Shown one piece after another: positions 32,000 to 38,906 of a stretch of DNA of 64,000 nucleotides. Numbering within the stretch: the stretch's first letter is position 1; each line of letters starts with the position of its first letter. The notes under the pieces are model-generated. The model was not told where the DNA came from, did not search any database, and worked only from the letters and a program-made list of their open reading frames with translations. Both the position numbers and the translations under genes were made by a program. The DNA comes from PVC group bacterium (GTDB taxonomy: Bacteria > Verrucomicrobiota > Kiritimatiellia > CAIKKV01 > CAITUY01), in assembly GCA_945870225.1 (NCBI GenBank), contig CAMBRF010000005.1:62001-126000 (forward strand), in the 5' to 3' direction.

Positions 32000-32188
32000 T
32001 CATCCTTCCAGCGGCATCGGATTACAGAGGTTGCCCTCGTGATCTGCCACGCGTCCGCAGTTGAAGCAGATGAACTTCGGGTCCTTGACATCGGCCTTGA
32101 TCTCATCGAAACGGCCCTGACTCGCCAGAACACACAAATGCCCCGGATGACCATGTTCGTGTTTGCAGTCTTTTTTCTTGTCGATCAT
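32000..32188 (-). CDS. Small zinc-ribbon-like protein of unknown function
   Basis: The 62-residue product is rich in Cys and His (KDCKHEHGHPGHLCVLAS, then FICFNCGRVADHEGNLC), consistent with binding Zn or Fe. The start has a strong GGAGAGGAAGG upstream. It is the last gene of the - strand run with pgl and zwf, 43 bases after pgl. I know of no function. It is one of several tiny metal-binding candidates in this island. Confidence 0.75.
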   Translation of the reverse strand: MIDKKKDCKHEHGHPGHLCVLASQGRFDEIKADVKDPKFICFNCGRVADHEGNLCNPMPLEG

Positions 32189-32231: not shown

Positions 32232-32906
32232 TCAGGCCTGCCATACCTGCACGCACGGAGCCTCCTGCACGGCCAACCCCGCCGTCACCCGTGTCGGATC
32301 CTTCAACAGGCGGTTCACGATTTCCCGCTTCCCGTCGCCGACTGCCAGAAAGATAAGCGTTTCGAAGCGCTTTAACAAGTCGGGTGTGACGGATATCCGG
32401 TCCGGCTTTTCTTTCCTGGGGATGGCGACGGCGTAAGCCCCCTTCCCCCGCATGAGATCCTTCTCGCTAAACAGTGAAGCAGTATGCCCGTCGGCCCCCA
32501 ACCCCAATAATCCCAAGGTCAACCGACCACCACTCTTGATGAATTGTTTCAGCGCCCGATCGTATTGCCCTGCCGAGGCCTTCAGCTCGCCTTCAAACTT
32601 CCCCCTGATCGTCCGCTCAGGCGGGAGATGCAGGGCATCAAGAACGGGACCGATACGACCGAAATTACTCTCCGGCGAATCCTCCGGAACAAACCGTTCG
32701 TCAGAGAAACAAACATAACCATCCTCGGAGGCCCGGCAGCGTCGGCGCATCAACTCCTGATAGGCAGGAAATGGCGTATCGCCACCGGACAGCATCACCG
32801 CATGCGGCCTTCCAAATGACCGGGCCAAATTTTGCTGAAGGACCTCAGCAACCGCCGTCGCCAAATCGTCTGCCGTCCTGAACGGCCTTAGCCTGATCGT
32901 TCCCAT
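32232..32906 (-). CDS. pgl: 6-phosphogluconolactonase
   Basis: Pgl hydrolyses 6-phosphogluconolactone, the second step of the oxidative pentose phosphate pathway. The family motifs are the SGGDTP phosphate loop (VMLSGGDTPFPAY), the segment CFSDERFVPEDSPESNFG, and LLGLGADGHTASLF, giving a full-length 224-residue enzyme. It is 42 bases downstream of zwf. The third oxidative step, gluconate-6-phosphate dehydrogenase (gnd), is not in the window. Confidence 0.93.
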   Translation of the reverse strand: MGTIRLRPFRTADDLATAVAEVLQQNLARSFGRPHAVMLSGGDTPFPAYQELMRRRCRASEDGYVCFSDERFVPEDSPESNFGRIGPVLDALHLPPERTIRGKFEGELKASAGQYDRALKQFIKSGGRLTLGLLGLGADGHTASLFSEKDLMRGKGAYAVAIPRKEKPDRISVTPDLLKRFETLIFLAVGDGKREIVNRLLKDPTRVTAGLAVQEAPCVQVWQA

Positions 32907-32948: not shown

Positions 32949-34433
32949 CTACATCATATCCGCACCGCTGAACCCCCATTTCCTGGCCAGGCCGAGGGCA
33001 TTCTCCGGACCGGAACAACTAAACGGGTACCGCATGGGCACGACCTTTTGCGTTTCAATCTCATTCAAAACCGGCGAAAACACATTCCAAGCTGCCGCCA
33101 ACTCGTCTGCGCGAATGAACAAACTGCGATCGCCCTCGATCACGTCCATCAAAAGGCATTCGTAAGCGTCCGGAATCAGGGTGTCGAAAGCCGCCTTATA
33201 GTGCAGGTCCAGCTCCGTGTGCTGCAGCGCCATATTCAAACCGGGAACCTTGTTCATGATCTTCAACTCAATCGCCTCGTCCGGCTGAATGCGGATCACC
33301 ATCTCATTCGCCTGAAGCATTCCGCTTGAAGCGGCGAAAATATCATTTTCCACGGGGCGAAAACGGATACGAACCTCGTTAACCTGACTGTCCAAGGCCT
33401 TGCCCGCCCCCAAAAAGAACGGCACCCCTTTCCAGCGGGGATTGTCAATTTCCAGCACTGCGGCCGCATAGGTGGAGGCGAGCGAATCGGACGGCACAGT
33501 CGGCTCCTCGACATAAGCCCGCTGCTTCCCCGACTCAGACGGCCCATACTGTCCAGTCGCCACATTGGCCAGCGCAAGAGGGGGAACGCACCGCAGTAGC
33601 CGGACTTTCTCATCCCGAACCGCCTGCGCATCGAATCGGGCAGGTCGTTCCATAGCGAGAAGCGCCAGAATCTGCAAGAGATGGTTTTGCATCACATCCC
33701 GGACAATTCCAAACCCGTCGAAATACCCGCCACGCTGCCCCACGCCCTGGGGCTCTTTCCAGATGATGCTCACTCTCTCGATGAACTGACGATTCCAGAT
33801 CGGCTCAAACACCAGGTTCGCAAACCTCAGCACCATAAGGTTCTGGACGATTTCCTTGCCGAGATAGTGATCAATTCGATAAGTCGACTCCTCAGTGAAC
33901 ACTTTATGCATCTCGCGGACCAACCCATCCGACGAGGCACGATCGCGGCCGAACGGTTTTTCCACCACAATGCGGGACCATTCCCGGCTTGAGCCGCAGG
34001 CTACCAGTCCTGAATTTCCAAGCGCGTTGGCGGCCTCCAGGAATATTGTCGGCGGAACCGCCATGTAAAATAGGCGATTCACAGGACCTTCGCCCTCGAC
34101 CATGCGCATGAATTGGAACAGGTCGAGAAAGGAGTCCGTTGAGGAATACTGGCCCGCCAGATAATGGCATCTCTTGAGAAATGCGGCTTCAAATTCGGCA
34201 CAGGAGACGCCCGGCACATACCGGCATGTGAGATTCTGCTCGATCTTCGTCCGAAAACCCGGCTGATCCATCGCCGATCTGGCCATGCCAAAAACCTGAA
34301 AATTGGCCGGCAGCAGCCCCTGACAGAAAAGCGCAAACAAAGCGGGGTATATTTTCCGCTGCGCGAGATCCCCGGAGGCACCCACCACCACAATACTAAG
34401 CGGCAGATCGCCACCCGGTTCAGTCTTTGGCAT
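32949..34433 (-). CDS. zwf: Glucose-6-phosphate 1-dehydrogenase
   Basis: This NADP-linked enzyme makes 6-phosphogluconolactone and NADPH. The N-terminal nucleotide motif is VVVGASGDLAQRKIYPALF. The catalytic peptide is RIDHYLGKEIVQNLMVLRF, and VVEKPFGRD is also conserved, all at the family spacing and a full-length 494 residues. ATG at 34433 was chosen with GGGAAGG upstream. The 14 bases 34420-34433 overlap the 3' end of the tiny Cys-rich gene in another frame, so zwf translation may be coupled to it. Confidence 0.95.
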   Translation of the reverse strand: MPKTEPGGDLPLSIVVVGASGDLAQRKIYPALFALFCQGLLPANFQVFGMARSAMDQPGFRTKIEQNLTCRYVPGVSCAEFEAAFLKRCHYLAGQYSSTDSFLDLFQFMRMVEGEGPVNRLFYMAVPPTIFLEAANALGNSGLVACGSSREWSRIVVEKPFGRDRASSDGLVREMHKVFTEESTYRIDHYLGKEIVQNLMVLRFANLVFEPIWNRQFIERVSIIWKEPQGVGQRGGYFDGFGIVRDVMQNHLLQILALLAMERPARFDAQAVRDEKVRLLRCVPPLALANVATGQYGPSESGKQRAYVEEPTVPSDSLASTYAAAVLEIDNPRWKGVPFFLGAGKALDSQVNEVRIRFRPVENDIFAASSGMLQANEMVIRIQPDEAIELKIMNKVPGLNMALQHTELDLHYKAAFDTLIPDAYECLLMDVIEGDRSLFIRADELAAAWNVFSPVLNEIETQKVVPMRYPFSCSGPENALGLARKWGFSGADMM

Positions 34434-34599
34434 GGGACACCTTCCCGCCTGCCCCTGCCCCCCGACATGAACTGCAGCGGGAACCTGACACGGGCTTGAC
34501 GAGCCACCCTTGACAGGCCGCGCATTTTGCATCCGAACACCATTGGCACATGTGACAGTCGGGACAAGGATGCTTCTTGTCTTTTTTGACCGCTTTCAC
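34420..34599 (-). CDS. Tiny cysteine-rich metal-binding protein coupled to dsbD and zwf
   Basis: The 59-residue product, from GTG at 34599, reads MKAVKKDKKHPCPDCHMCQW and continues with CSDAKCAACQGW and CSSC. It has eight cysteines in stacked CxxC units, typical of zinc knuckles or small Fe-S carriers. GGAGGTAAA precedes the start. The start overlaps the dsbD stop as GTGA and the stop overlaps the zwf start by 14 bases, so it is locked into this operon. Its place between a thiol reductase and an NADPH source suggests a redox or metal-handling role, which is inference. Confidence 0.7.
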   Translation of the reverse strand: MKAVKKDKKHPCPDCHMCQWCSDAKCAACQGWLVKPVSGSRCSSCRGAGAGGKVSHAKD

Positions 34600-36251
34600 T
34601 TTACCTCCGGGGGCGGAGTCAGAACGACATACGTCGGCAAACCCTTGACCCCGTAGTAGTCCAAAATCTCCTTTGTGGCCGGATCGTTTGGATTCTCGGC
34701 CTGAACCTTTACCACCCGATATCCGGACAACCGCTGACGGACCGTATCCGCCCGGAAGGTTGTGGCCTCCATGGCCTCACAGTTCTTGCACCAGGTCGCC
34801 CAGAAATCCACGAACACCGGTACGCCAGCACCCCGGGCGGACATCAGGGACGCCTCCCATTCGCCGCCGTGTTCCGCGGAAACCTGAACCGTTCCATCAG
34901 CGACGGTCTCCGTCCGGACTGATCCCGTCCAGCCGTGATAAGCCAACAAGGCATAGTGCAGGGCGAACAGAAGAATGAACACCCCAAAACCGTATTTAAC
35001 CCGGGTCATCCAGACACCCGGCTTAGGCAAGCGGGCCAACCCGCCGCCAACAAGTGGCCAGGGCAGAGCCATTCCCACGCCGAGCATGAAGGGCAAAACC
35101 AATCCAACCGCTGCGCCCTGCGCGTAGAGGGCGCTGGACAATATCAACACCGCAATCACCACGGGGGCCACACACGCACCCGCCAGAAGAGCCGCCACAC
35201 TACCCATCGCCAGAGCCGCCATGATACTTCCGCGCTTGAACACCTGCTCACGTCCGGCCCCACTCTGGAAACGGGAAAAATCAATATTGATCACGTCAAA
35301 CATGGCCAGCCCTAACATCACAAACAAAACAGCGATGGCCAGATTGAATCCTGGCATGGAATTTAATGACCCAAACTGCGCGCCCGTGAGCACCACCGTC
35401 AAACCCAGAACGCCGTAGATAAACGCCATCCCCACGCCATACGCCCCACCCAAGGCAACCCCCCTGCCCCGTGAAGATCCTTGAGTTCCCACGCCCAGAA
35501 TTGCCAGGTTAACCGGTATCATCGGCAAAACACACGGCGTCAGGTTCAGAAGCAACCCTCCGATCAGAATTGTCAGGACAGTCCAACCCACGCCAAACTG
35601 CCTCAGGAATTCCACCGGGTCTGCACCAAAGAGGGCATAACCGCTCCCCATCCGTTCCCGCCAGCCTTTAGCTTTTCCCTCTCGACCGGCGTCGCGACCT
35701 TCGCATTGATCGAGAAATCTCAGGAACTCGCCCATCCTCAAGTAGCCAGACGTTTTCCCCGCCACATGAAACCCGTCTGCCAGATTCCGCCAGGCCGCGT
35801 CCGCGTTACGTGCCCCCGGGGGACGCATACCCCCCGCAGGCTGTGCCGCGGCCTTCAACTGGAACCTACGGGATTGAGGAAAAAAACAGAGGTCCTCATT
35901 GCAGCCCTGATAATGGACCTCCACGTCGGTTTCCGGGGTGCCGGATGAAGGCATCAAGTAGACGATGGTGAAATCATTCGTGAAGGAATCGCGGGCTGAT
36001 GCAGAAAATGAGTCGCGGAGGGAAACCGGCGGTGTCCGACCCCATTCTCTCAACCCCGCCCCTCCCCCCGCCACGGCGGCTCCAAGGGTATCGGCATAAA
36101 GGTGATGTCCCGGTGGAACATGGAACGTCACCTCCGCCACGGCATTTGACCCCCGCCAGGCCAACTGTGCGTTGACCTCAAACGGATCGGCCGCCATACC
36201 GGTCCCAGCCAGCAACAGCAAAAAAGCCGCGATTATTTTTTCGGCACGCAT
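34596..36251 (-). CDS. dsbD: Thiol:disulfide interchange protein DsbD-type
   Basis: This protein carries electrons across the inner membrane to periplasmic thiol proteins. There is a signal peptide (IIAAFLLLLAGTGMA), an N-terminal DsbD-alpha-like domain (about residues 20-140, with QGCNEDLCFFPQ), and an eight-TM CcdA/DsbD core (NLTPCVLPMIPVNLAILG, GACVAPVVIAVLIL). A C-terminal thioredoxin domain has WATWCKNCEAMEATTF. All three redox cysteine pairs are present. ATG at 36251 is preceded by GCGGGAGCG. It is translationally coupled to the Cys-rich peptide and links the oxygen-defence genes to zwf. Confidence 0.9.
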   Translation of the reverse strand: MRAEKIIAAFLLLLAGTGMAADPFEVNAQLAWRGSNAVAEVTFHVPPGHHLYADTLGAAVAGGGAGLREWGRTPPVSLRDSFSASARDSFTNDFTIVYLMPSSGTPETDVEVHYQGCNEDLCFFPQSRRFQLKAAAQPAGGMRPPGARNADAAWRNLADGFHVAGKTSGYLRMGEFLRFLDQCEGRDAGREGKAKGWRERMGSGYALFGADPVEFLRQFGVGWTVLTILIGGLLLNLTPCVLPMIPVNLAILGVGTQGSSRGRGVALGGAYGVGMAFIYGVLGLTVVLTGAQFGSLNSMPGFNLAIAVLFVMLGLAMFDVINIDFSRFQSGAGREQVFKRGSIMAALAMGSVAALLAGACVAPVVIAVLILSSALYAQGAAVGLVLPFMLGVGMALPWPLVGGGLARLPKPGVWMTRVKYGFGVFILLFALHYALLAYHGWTGSVRTETVADGTVQVSAEHGGEWEASLMSARGAGVPVFVDFWATWCKNCEAMEATTFRADTVRQRLSGYRVVKVQAENPNDPATKEILDYYGVKGLPTYVVLTPPPEVK

Positions 36252-36274
36252 GGCACGCTCCCGCATCAACAACC

Positions 36275-36631
36275 TTATGCGGCTCTCTTGGCCCACTTGA
36301 TGATGGTCTGGAGGATATCCCGAACAAAATTGCACTCACACTGCGTAGGACAGGACCGCATCTCCTCCTTGTGCAGGCAATACCCCGGACAGGCGGGTGG
36401 ACTGACCGTCTTCCGCTCAAAGAGCGGTCCTTCGAATAAATCAAAAAACACCTCAGCCGGGACCGAGACCGTAGTCCGGCAGTTCTTTCGAGTGTGATTA
36501 AAAAGGAAGAAGCCGGATTTCAGCCACTCAAAGTTGGCCTGATACCCGATCGCCACAACCTCCGGATCTCCCAGGAAATCCTCCCGGGAGATCCACTCCT
36601 TCTTGCACTGTGAACACGTTTTGAAGGCCAT
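36275..36631 (-). CDS. Cysteine-rich protein of unknown function
   Basis: The 118-residue product has an N-terminal rubredoxin-like CSQCKKEW pair and a C-terminal cluster (CPGYCLHKEEMRSCPTQCEC), nine cysteines in total. It may bind Zn or an Fe-S centre. The first 35 residues (FKTCSQCKKEW to DPEVVAIGYQ) resemble short proteins found near ferritins, but I cannot name a family. It starts 6 bases after the ferritin stop, so co-transcription is likely, although no strong ribosome site was seen. Confidence 0.72.
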   Translation of the reverse strand: MAFKTCSQCKKEWISREDFLGDPEVVAIGYQANFEWLKSGFFLFNHTRKNCRTTVSVPAEVFFDLFEGPLFERKTVSPPACPGYCLHKEEMRSCPTQCECNFVRDILQTIIKWAKRAA

Positions 36632-36637
36632 AATTGG

Positions 36638-37135
36638 TCAGGATTTGGTGCCGCGCTTGCCCAACTGCTTATCGATCATCAGCAGGGACCCCGTCGAATT
36701 CCCCGCCATCTTGAGCATACCGATAATCTCGTTATCGTTCGCCTCTTCCTCCACCTGCTCCGACACATACCACTGCAGAAGGATCTGGGTGGCATAGTCT
36801 TTCTCAGCCACCGCCAGATCCATCAGCCCGTTGATGCTCTTGGTGATGAATCGTTCATGCTTGATGGTCGCCTCGAACATTTCCAGGAGCGACTTAAAGC
36901 CGATCTTCGGCTTCGCAATCGCCTCGAGCTCCACTTCCGCGCCCTGCTCCAGCAGGTATTTGTAGAACTTCATGGCGTGGCCCGTTTCCTCCTGGTACTG
37001 AACCTGGAACCACGTCCCGGCCCCCTTCAGGCCTTTGCTCGTGGCATCGGCCGAAATGGCGAGGTACAAATAGGCGGAATAGATCTCTTTGTTGATCTGA
37101 TTGTTAATGGCATTCTGTATTTTTTTACTGATCAT
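36638..37135 (-). CDS. ftnA: Ferritin (FtnA type)
   Basis: The 165-residue protein has the ferroxidase centre residues in the usual places: the N-terminal helix NKEIYSAYLYLAISA, EETGHAMKFYKYLLEQGAE in helix B, and downstream acids in SEQVEEEAND. It oxidises Fe2+ and stores it as ferric mineral, removing the Fenton partner of peroxide. ATG at 37135 follows AAGGAGATAAG. It is in the operon with superoxide reductase and rubrerythrin. Confidence 0.93.
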   Translation of the reverse strand: MISKKIQNAINNQINKEIYSAYLYLAISADATSKGLKGAGTWFQVQYQEETGHAMKFYKYLLEQGAEVELEAIAKPKIGFKSLLEMFEATIKHERFITKSINGLMDLAVAEKDYATQILLQWYVSEQVEEEANDNEIIGMLKMAGNSTGSLLMIDKQLGKRGTKS

Positions 37136-37162
37136 CTTATCTCCTTTTCCACGTATCAAGAC

Positions 37163-37540
37163 TCAGGCCTTCCAAAGCCCATGTAAATTGCAATATTCGC
37201 GGGCCACCACATCGGCTGCGGTGACGCCTTCAAAAATGGCCGCCGGCTCCTGGCCCGGTTTCAGATGCTGCCGCAGGACCTTATCGCTCACCAGCAACTC
37301 GATCCATTCGATGGAATGCTTTTCTTCCATCGGATGGAGCACACTGCCGACCGTCACCTTGATCCCGTTCGGAAGGCGGGTGATCACCGGCACATGCTTT
37401 TCCTTCGAGGCGTCCACCGTGTTCTCAACAATCAACTTCATCGGCTTTCCGCAGCAGAAGAGTTCACCGGCCCCGGCATGCAACACCTCAACAATATTAC
37501 CGCAGGATTCGCACTTGAATACGTTCATTTTAACCGTCAT
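37163..37540 (-). CDS. dfx: Desulfoferrodoxin (superoxide reductase)
   Basis: This two-domain superoxide reductase reduces superoxide to peroxide without forming oxygen. The N-terminal FeCys4 centre is [10 protein letters not shown] with FCCGKPM. The C-terminal catalytic FeHis4Cys centre uses [19 protein letters not shown] and CNLHGLW, which carry the ligands and the active-site Glu-Lys. The length is 125 residues. ATG is preceded by AAGGAGATCTT. Electrons probably come from the rubredoxin encoded two genes upstream. Confidence 0.94.
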
Positions 37541-37569: not shown

Positions 37570-38148
37570 TTACCAGTTTTCGCCCAGAATTTCGAAGTGA
37601 GCACGCGGGTGCGCACAGGCGGGGCAAACATCCGGGGCCGATTTGCCGGTGTGGAGGTAACCGCAATGACGGCACCGCCAAACCACTTCCTGATCCCGCT
37701 GAAAAACCTTACCCGCTTCAATGTTCGCCGCGAGATCCCGGTACCTCTTGGCGTGCTGTTTCTCGGCAACCGCAATCGCCTCGAAGACCTTGGCTACATC
37801 GTCCAAACCCTCCGCCCGGGCGGTTTTGGCAAAGCCGGGATACATCTCCTTCCACTCATACTCCTCGCCCGCCACGCCGGCCTTCAGGTTATCGACGGTA
37901 TCGCCCACAACACCGGCGGGAAACGTGGCACGGATCTCCAACTCGCCACCTTGCAGGAACTTGAACAAGCGGTGCGCATGCTCCTTTTCCTGATTGGCGG
38001 TCTCGTCAAAAATATCGGCAATCTGAATAAACCCTTCCTTGCGGGCTTTCCCGGCAAAGAACGTATATCGATTCCGGGCCTGGGATTCCCCCGCAAAAGC
38101 GGTCAGGATATTCCGTTCGGTTTGAGTTCCCTTCAACTTCATCGCCAT
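37570..38148 (-). CDS. rbr: Rubrerythrin
   Basis: This non-haem di-iron peroxidase reduces hydrogen peroxide to water in anaerobes. The ferritin-like domain (residues 1-145) holds the paired EExxR/ExxH iron ligands (ESQARNRYTFFAGKA, EKEHAHRLFKFLQ, EKQHAKRY). The C-terminal rubredoxin-type centre is CRHCGYLHTG with CPACAHP. It has 192 residues and a perfect AGGAGGAGTGA site. It is 16 bases after rubredoxin, its usual electron donor. Confidence 0.95.
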   Translation of the reverse strand: MAMKLKGTQTERNILTAFAGESQARNRYTFFAGKARKEGFIQIADIFDETANQEKEHAHRLFKFLQGGELEIRATFPAGVVGDTVDNLKAGVAGEEYEWKEMYPGFAKTARAEGLDDVAKVFEAIAVAEKQHAKRYRDLAANIEAGKVFQRDQEVVWRCRHCGYLHTGKSAPDVCPACAHPRAHFEILGENW

Positions 38149-38164: not shown

Positions 38165-38323
38165 TTAGTTCTGGGCTGAAAAATCACTCTTCGCGACGCC
38201 ACAATCGGGACACACCCAATCATCCGGAATATCGGCAAAAGCCGTCCCGGGAGCAATGCCATGATCCGGGTCGCCCAGTTTGGGATCGTACACATAACCG
38301 CACACATTACACACGAACTTCAT
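38165..38323 (-). CDS. rd: Rubredoxin
   Basis: The 52-residue protein is a textbook rubredoxin: [20 protein letters not shown] with the first CxxC, and [16 protein letters not shown] with the second, binding one Fe. It transfers single electrons to rubrerythrin and superoxide reductase. It is the first gene of the operon leading into rubrerythrin, desulfoferrodoxin and ferritin; GGAGGATGA lies upstream of ATG. Confidence 0.95.
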
Positions 38324-38389: not shown

Positions 38390-38872
38390 TTACTTCTTCA
38401 ACAACACTTTCAAATGTTTGACATAGGCTTCAGGTCCGCCGGCCTGGTACCCGGTACGGGCCAGTTCCTTGCCCTCGGCACTGAGCAACAACACGGCGGG
38501 GAAACCCCTCACGTTGAATTGCTCGGCCAAAGCCCGGTTGACCTTCTTGATCTCATCGCTTTGAGAGTCACGCTGAGGAAAATCAATCAACAACAAAACA
38601 AGGTTGTCTTTGGCGTAATCCTTAAAGGCCGGCTTGGAAAACACTTCCTTATCCAGGCGGATACACCAGCCGCACCAATCGGATCCTGAAAAATCGACAA
38701 GGATCGGAAGCTTTTTTGCAGCCGCTTCGGTCTTGGCCGTCTCCAACGAGGTCAGCCACACGAGTTTGCTGTCGCCGCCCGGTTCCGCCGCCTCTTTTTT
38801 GTCCTCTGCCCTACACGACATCAAAGCCACTGATGCCAGAATAACCGCCCACGCCACTGTTTTCTTCAACAT
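38390..38872 (-). CDS. Thioredoxin-fold lipoprotein
   Basis: A lipoprotein signal (AVILASVALMSC) with Cys at the cleavage site is followed by a Glu/Lys linker and a thioredoxin domain whose motif is WCGWC (SGSDWCGWCIRLDKEVF). The cis-Pro is in RGFPAVLLL. Attached to a membrane in the periplasm, it should be reduced by DsbD and act on protein thiols. It is 160 residues from ATG at 38872, which has AAAGGAGTTGGG upstream. It lies just upstream of the rubredoxin operon on the same strand. Confidence 0.87.
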   Translation of the reverse strand: MLKKTVAWAVILASVALMSCRAEDKKEAAEPGGDSKLVWLTSLETAKTEAAAKKLPILVDFSGSDWCGWCIRLDKEVFSKPAFKDYAKDNLVLLLIDFPQRDSQSDEIKKVNRALAEQFNVRGFPAVLLLSAEGKELARTGYQAGGPEAYVKHLKVLLKK

Positions 38873-38906
38873 ACCCAACTCCTTTCGGTCATAATTGCCC
38901 CGGTCC

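Follow-up and report, generated by a model that had tools for sequence, protein, structure and literature searches.

What does a very short, cysteine-rich reading frame do between dsbD and zwf, and is it a gene at all? The question was raised by an earlier note on the window (the whole stretch of 64,000 nucleotides that was analysed, from a PVC group bacterium). To our knowledge, little is known of how NADPH production is linked to the removal of peroxide and superoxide in strict anaerobes. The frame, designated gene X, occupies positions 34420-34599 of the minus strand and encodes a cysteine-rich protein of 59 amino acids with a GTG start and six conserved cysteines (MKAVKKDKKHPCPDCHMCQWCSDAKCAACQGWLVKPVSGSRCSSCRGAGAGGKVSHAKD). 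Direct reading of the DNA confirmed the 59-residue, eight-cysteine frame of the earlier note and supplied the strand, which the note had not given: the GTG start is at 34599-34597 and the stop codon ends at 34420. A Shine-Dalgarno-like GGAGG (34604-34608, minus strand) is located 4 nt before the GTG, within the 3' end of dsbD. Both overlaps that had been claimed were also found: the sequence GTGA is common to the start of X and the stop of dsbD (4-nt overlap), and the final 14 nt of X overlap the start of zwf (ATG at 34433). The product is small, basic and lysine-rich, with a conserved core from K9 to C29 (34513-34575, minus strand; KHPCPDCHMCQWCSDAKCAAC) that was delimited by alignments and codon analysis, followed by a hydrophilic tail that varies among relatives. 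Reading the 64-kb window in all six frames gave a single copy of the six-cysteine core, and 40 simulated windows (Markov, generated from the window's own dinucleotide frequencies) gave none, which is beyond chance.

Relatives of X were collected by several searches. A single-sequence search found homologous frames in 26 of 146 related genomes, and a profile search found X in 31 of the 346 genomes of the window's class; among 388 genomes sampled over the phylum, the profile matched 17, all within the same class. A scan of named genomes yielded at least 255 relatives in Desulfuromonadia, Nitrospirota, Fibrobacterota, Planctomycetota and other groups, of which 80 loci were kept for analysis. The plasmid records contained no relative of X. 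The conserved motif is KKHPCPDCxxCQWCSDxRCxxC, and C12, C15, C18, C21, C26 and C29 were invariant in 65 aligned members; four of the six cysteines were fixed by the search pattern of the named-genome scan, and none by the single-sequence and class profile searches. All eight cysteines are present in the window copy, but only these six are conserved, C42 and C45 showing no conservation in the alignments of relatives. H10 was likewise invariant in the 65 members, and was rejected as an invariant residue: several relatives from Nitrospirota (L046, L064, L098 and L105) have Asn in its place, so it is only nearly invariant and was not counted as a required ligand.

The frame is kept in relatives, and the median dN/dS of the core was ~0.11, not near 1 (24-codon core of the operonic group, in which 21 of 120 pairs were unsaturated). 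Differences in the core at codon positions 1, 2 and 3 numbered 678, 435 and 1620, respectively, an excess at the third position, and every invariant cysteine showed synonymous exchange between TGC and TGT. These patterns indicate that X is a genuine coding gene under strong purifying selection. It might be supposed that a frame so short, overlapping both neighbours, is spurious or serves zwf merely as a translational-coupling leader; the low dN/dS, the TGC/TGT exchange at every invariant cysteine, and homologues that lie at a distance from zwf or form part of fusion proteins argue against this. On these sequence data such a reading appears already contradicted, and we consider it extremely improbable.

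The family is missing from the collections that were searched, and the earlier note's suggestion of novelty stands in that no Pfam, NCBIfam or PHROGs model covers it. X itself matched no Pfam family at E≤1, and the 65 members gave no consistent match to Pfam, NCBIfam or PHROGs (threshold E≤0.01, with Pfam scanned to 0.1). No rubredoxin or zinc-ribbon Pfam match was obtained for the 65 members at E≤0.1. One relative matched the NCBIfam model YgiQ (E 0.003), which was judged to be a chance match. Profile searches of the PDB with X returned nothing significant and no related solved structure (TRABID, E 0.12; Nup153, E 5.6). AlphaFold2 models were of low confidence (mean pLDDT 56 for the short form with 65 rows and 64 for the long form with 24 rows). 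Literature searches with X motif strings and with the zwf/superoxide reductase/rubrerythrin operon found no relevant paper. X is thus an uncatalogued small-protein family without a curated model, with a genomic setting that is recurrent and physiologically coherent.

That setting is larger than dsbD and zwf, which the earlier note had treated as a unit with X. All members of the window cluster are on the minus strand, in the following order: a thioredoxin-like lipoprotein containing DWCGWC (38390-38878; ORF identified by inspection); a rubredoxin of 52 amino acids (38165-38323; ORF with a PF00301 match at G000:C5:100180-100320); a rubrerythrin (37570-38148; ORF inspected against the Pfam-confirmed rubrerythrin of L031); a desulfoferrodoxin or two-iron superoxide reductase (37163-37540; PF01880 and PF06397); a ferritin (36638-37147; PF00210); p118, a conserved cysteine-rich protein of 118 amino acids without a Pfam family (36275-36631; MAFKTCSQCKKEW...); dsbD, with DsbD_N, DsbD_TM and a C-terminal thioredoxin domain by Pfam (34596-36335, as the longest ORF); X; zwf, encoding glucose-6-phosphate dehydrogenase (32949-34433; TIGR00871, 541 bits); pgl, encoding 6-phosphogluconolactonase (32232-32906; Pfam Glucosamine_iso family); and s62, a conserved Cys/His-rich ORF of 62 amino acids without a Pfam family (32000-32188; MIDKKKDCKHEHGHPGH...). 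The matches bear out the names that the earlier note gave to dsbD and zwf. From rubredoxin through s62 the genes overlap or are separated by a few tens of bases. The functional unit around X is the whole anaerobic oxidative-stress cluster. Two of the less familiar members recur elsewhere: many genomes of the class keep p118 between ferritin or rubrerythrin on one side and dsbD on the other, and s62, which closes the zwf/pgl cluster, shares 84-89% identity with its counterparts in two relatives and 60-72% with those of other relatives. No regulator of the FUR/PerR family was found in the window genome (~84% complete), despite the full superoxide reductase/rubrerythrin cluster.

Within the class, the dsbD-X-zwf order, which the earlier note proposed to look for in PVC genomes, was kept in nine genomes, all of the window's family and order; it holds in part of one class and is not a general trait of the PVC group, X itself having been found in 17 of the 388 genomes sampled over the phylum, all of this class. 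Much of the cluster recurs in eight genomes (G001-G005, G008, G013 and G014), always with X between dsbD and zwf, and G067 has the order rubrerythrin-dsbD-X-pgl. In four genomes (G011, G019, G107 and G335) dsbD adjoins zwf without X, and a longer X is encoded elsewhere; this longer form carries an MPFxxxPGVxGLVYVP extension and lies within a few kb of zwf in G090 and G335. In the class as a whole, zwf was present in 28 of 31 genomes with X versus 141 of 315 without it, superoxide reductase in 27 of 31 versus 89 of 315, and both genes together in 26 of 31 versus 50 of 315 (Fisher p ~1e-14, uncorrected for phylogeny). G006 and G007, members of a genus that otherwise carries X, jointly lack X, zwf and superoxide reductase.

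The cysteines of Zwf were considered as a signature of dependence on X and were rejected, since the five class-wide cysteines are present with or without an adjacent X. Within the class, 8 of 9 X-linked Zwf enzymes carry Cys426, as against 1 of 8 unlinked ones, a difference that is probably phylogenetic; because of this confounding, it was not used as evidence on X.

Outside the class, X was again found beside zwf or beside genes of oxidative-stress defence. In one planctomycete (L029) superoxide reductase is followed by X directly upstream of zwf, and in another (L034) superoxide reductase is followed by X, a ferredoxin-like gene, an AhpD-like gene (both named by inspection) and zwf. Three Fibrobacterota loci (L053, L060 and L070) have X directly upstream of zwf, with rubrerythrin or ferritin, and in one Auribacterota genome (L031) X follows rubrerythrin. 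X therefore adjoins zwf and/or superoxide reductase, rubrerythrin or ferritin in the window's class, in Planctomycetota and in Fibrobacterota. In most X-zwf loci, Fibrobacterota included, the distance from the X stop to the zwf start is -4, -8, -14, +3 or +12 nt, which indicates that the X frame is coupled to zwf; the translational coupling of X between dsbD and zwf that the earlier note described is supported for the window. As a fixed partner dsbD did not hold up, being the least constant neighbour: loci of Planctomycetota, Fibrobacterota and Auribacterota place X near zwf and/or superoxide reductase, rubrerythrin or ferritin with no dsbD. In a tree of Zwf proteins the X-linked enzymes fell into three deep lineages, which makes a single recently spread cassette unlikely.

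The association is a property of one branch. When the window's branch was defined by a GW signature after the last cysteine plus four near relatives (an outline that is partly the analyst's choice), zwf, superoxide reductase, rubrerythrin, ferritin or dsbD lay within 3 kb in 13 of its 15 loci versus 0 of the 65 other loci. The Desulfuromonadia relatives combine the core with a KKLSxAEQIALYExLN tail and are located away from zwf, many of them adjoining a polysaccharide-deacetylase-like gene (named by inspection). In five Geobacter-related loci (L044, L045, L059, L067 and L080) the core also forms the N-terminal part of a fusion with a TrmN6-like methyltransferase, and in two loci of Desulfuromonadales (L072 and L087) it is joined to a low-molecular-weight phosphotyrosine-phosphatase-like domain. 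From these tails, neighbours and fusions it follows that the X core is a mobile mini-domain. The tie to oxidative stress and Zwf is limited to a single branch, and, since most relatives (Desulfuromonadia and Nitrospirota) lie away from zwf and some occur as methyltransferase fusions, the core as such has no specificity for Zwf.

The existence of X and its setting in the oxidative-stress cluster are well supported, and from them we infer a likely metal, partner and mechanism. X probably helps to run the oxygen defence of these anaerobes in a way that has not been described. Our leading reading, to which we give a probability of roughly 0.4, is that X is a cytosolic metal-thiolate protein (the metal probably being zinc) that assists the anaerobic oxidative-stress system, most likely by acting as a redox switch on Zwf and the NADPH supply. 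In its favour are the conserved coding frame, the coupling to zwf, the neighbours shared by 13 of the 15 loci of the window's branch, the three deep Zwf lineages, the co-occurrence with zwf and superoxide reductase (including their joint absence with X from G006 and G007), the gene order in L034, and the analogues described below. Under reducing, anoxic conditions the cysteine cluster would hold a soft metal, most likely Zn(II), with the outer pairs C12/C15 and C26/C29 as a structural site and the inner C18-Q-W-C21 pair as a reactive dithiol. Oxygen, peroxide or disulfide stress would oxidise the thiols, and the metal would be lost or moved; the oxidised protein would then bind differently and could act as a redox switch or a protective holdase. 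The most probable client would be Zwf, as the source of the NADPH that feeds thioredoxin/DsbD and the reduction of peroxide or superoxide. A switch acting on Zwf is made weaker by the unconfident AlphaFold2 fold and the lack of a solved relative, by the X-carrying genomes that have dsbD directly beside zwf and encode a longer X at another site, and by the independence of the class-wide Zwf cysteines from an adjacent X.

Two known systems offer analogies. Ruc (Rv0991c) of mycobacteria is a small zinc/cysteine protein whose tail is disordered and which turns into a chaperone when it is oxidised (PMC7448276). X is likewise small, with compact CxxC pairs followed by a hydrophilic, variable tail, in a setting linked to stress defence. 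Ruc differs in having four cysteines (C8, C11, C29 and C32) that form a zinc ribbon of spacing CxxC-x17-CxxC, whereas the six cysteines of X are spaced CxxC-x2-CxxC-x4-CxxC and none of the 65 members matches a zinc-ribbon Pfam family; Ruc is encoded beside chaperone and protease genes, and X beside superoxide reductase, rubrerythrin and zwf. The search showed no relation between the two in sequence; the likeness is one of analogy, and metal binding by X is predicted. OpcA is a redox-sensitive protein that switches cyanobacterial glucose-6-phosphate dehydrogenase (PMC13071761), and X would resemble it in manner of working, as a thiol protein linked to this enzyme and tuning the NADPH supply to the redox state. 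The two belong to unrelated families and different lifestyles; for X the connection is gene linkage to zwf, and an action on Zwf is hypothetical.

Other roles were weighed against the same evidence. The earlier note had suggested a carrier of zinc or Fe-S, of which thiol/metal chemistry remains the best guess. X could be a small electron carrier, of the rubredoxin-like Fe(Cys)4 or Fe-S type, between NADPH-linked reductases and rubrerythrin or superoxide reductase: it is a small cytosolic cysteine protein in the cluster of those two enzymes, its CPDC resembles the CPxC knuckle of rubredoxin, and in D. vulgaris sor is clustered with genes for rubredoxin (PMC3116461). The case for an Fe-S protein or electron carrier is nevertheless weakened because a genuine rubredoxin is encoded in the same cluster, and rubredoxin was found in 14 of 14 X-carrying genomes checked. 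Rubredoxin binds one Fe with two CxxCG knuckles, whereas X has the array CxxCxxCxxCx4CxxC, with six rather than four invariant cysteines and no glycine directly after the knuckles, and matches neither PF00301 nor a ferredoxin family. We hold this role to be quite unlikely. A metallothionein-like buffer or donor, capturing Zn, Fe or Cu from oxidatively damaged proteins and helping to remetallate the enzymes of the cluster, would suit a lysine-rich protein with six invariant cysteines and a nearly invariant histidine in ~20 residues, encoded among iron enzymes and ferritin; but the strong conservation of residues that are not ligands (P, D, Q, W, S, D and R) points to a specific surface more than to a simple chelator, and no metal-responsive or metal-transport genes were noticed in the recurrent neighbour clusters, which are partly annotated. 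Such a buffer is regarded as unlikely.

The fusions of the core to the methyltransferase and phosphatase-like domains bear on another possibility, that X is a general zinc-finger-like adaptor for RNA or protein, co-opted into different pathways, with an incidental linkage to zwf in this branch. C12-C15 and C26-C29 fit the CxxC-x10-CxxC spacing of RanBP2/NZF fingers, and such fingers (TRABID and Nup153) are among the insignificant PDB matches, which amounts to no more than a lead; X differs from these fingers in its two extra invariant cysteines and in having no Pfam match. The recurrence of the zwf/superoxide reductase/rubrerythrin/ferritin link in several phyla within the window's branch, and the class-wide co-occurrence of X with zwf and superoxide reductase, speak against an incidental linkage, and we regard such an adaptor as unlikely.

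Overall, the interpretation of X in the earlier note was partly supported, being partly right and too narrow. X is a concrete candidate for the link between NADPH supply and oxidant removal: a conserved thiol protein, coupled to glucose-6-phosphate dehydrogenase, in an operon with rubredoxin, rubrerythrin, superoxide reductase and ferritin. Since the 22-residue core recurs over several phyla and is partly fused, a curated model would put a name to a few hundred or more small proteins that are unclassified, and would open the function to tests in a Geobacter/Geomonas relative that can be cultured. A stronger proposal, which on present evidence we judge improbable, is that X is the founding member of an undescribed family of metal-thiolate microproteins with six cysteines, which in anaerobes sense oxidation and exert direct control over glucose-6-phosphate dehydrogenase. 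OpcA is far larger than X. If the proposal were true, X would match the supply of NADPH to the demand of superoxide reductase, rubrerythrin and DsbD, and would be an OpcA-like switch of independent origin in only ~50 residues.
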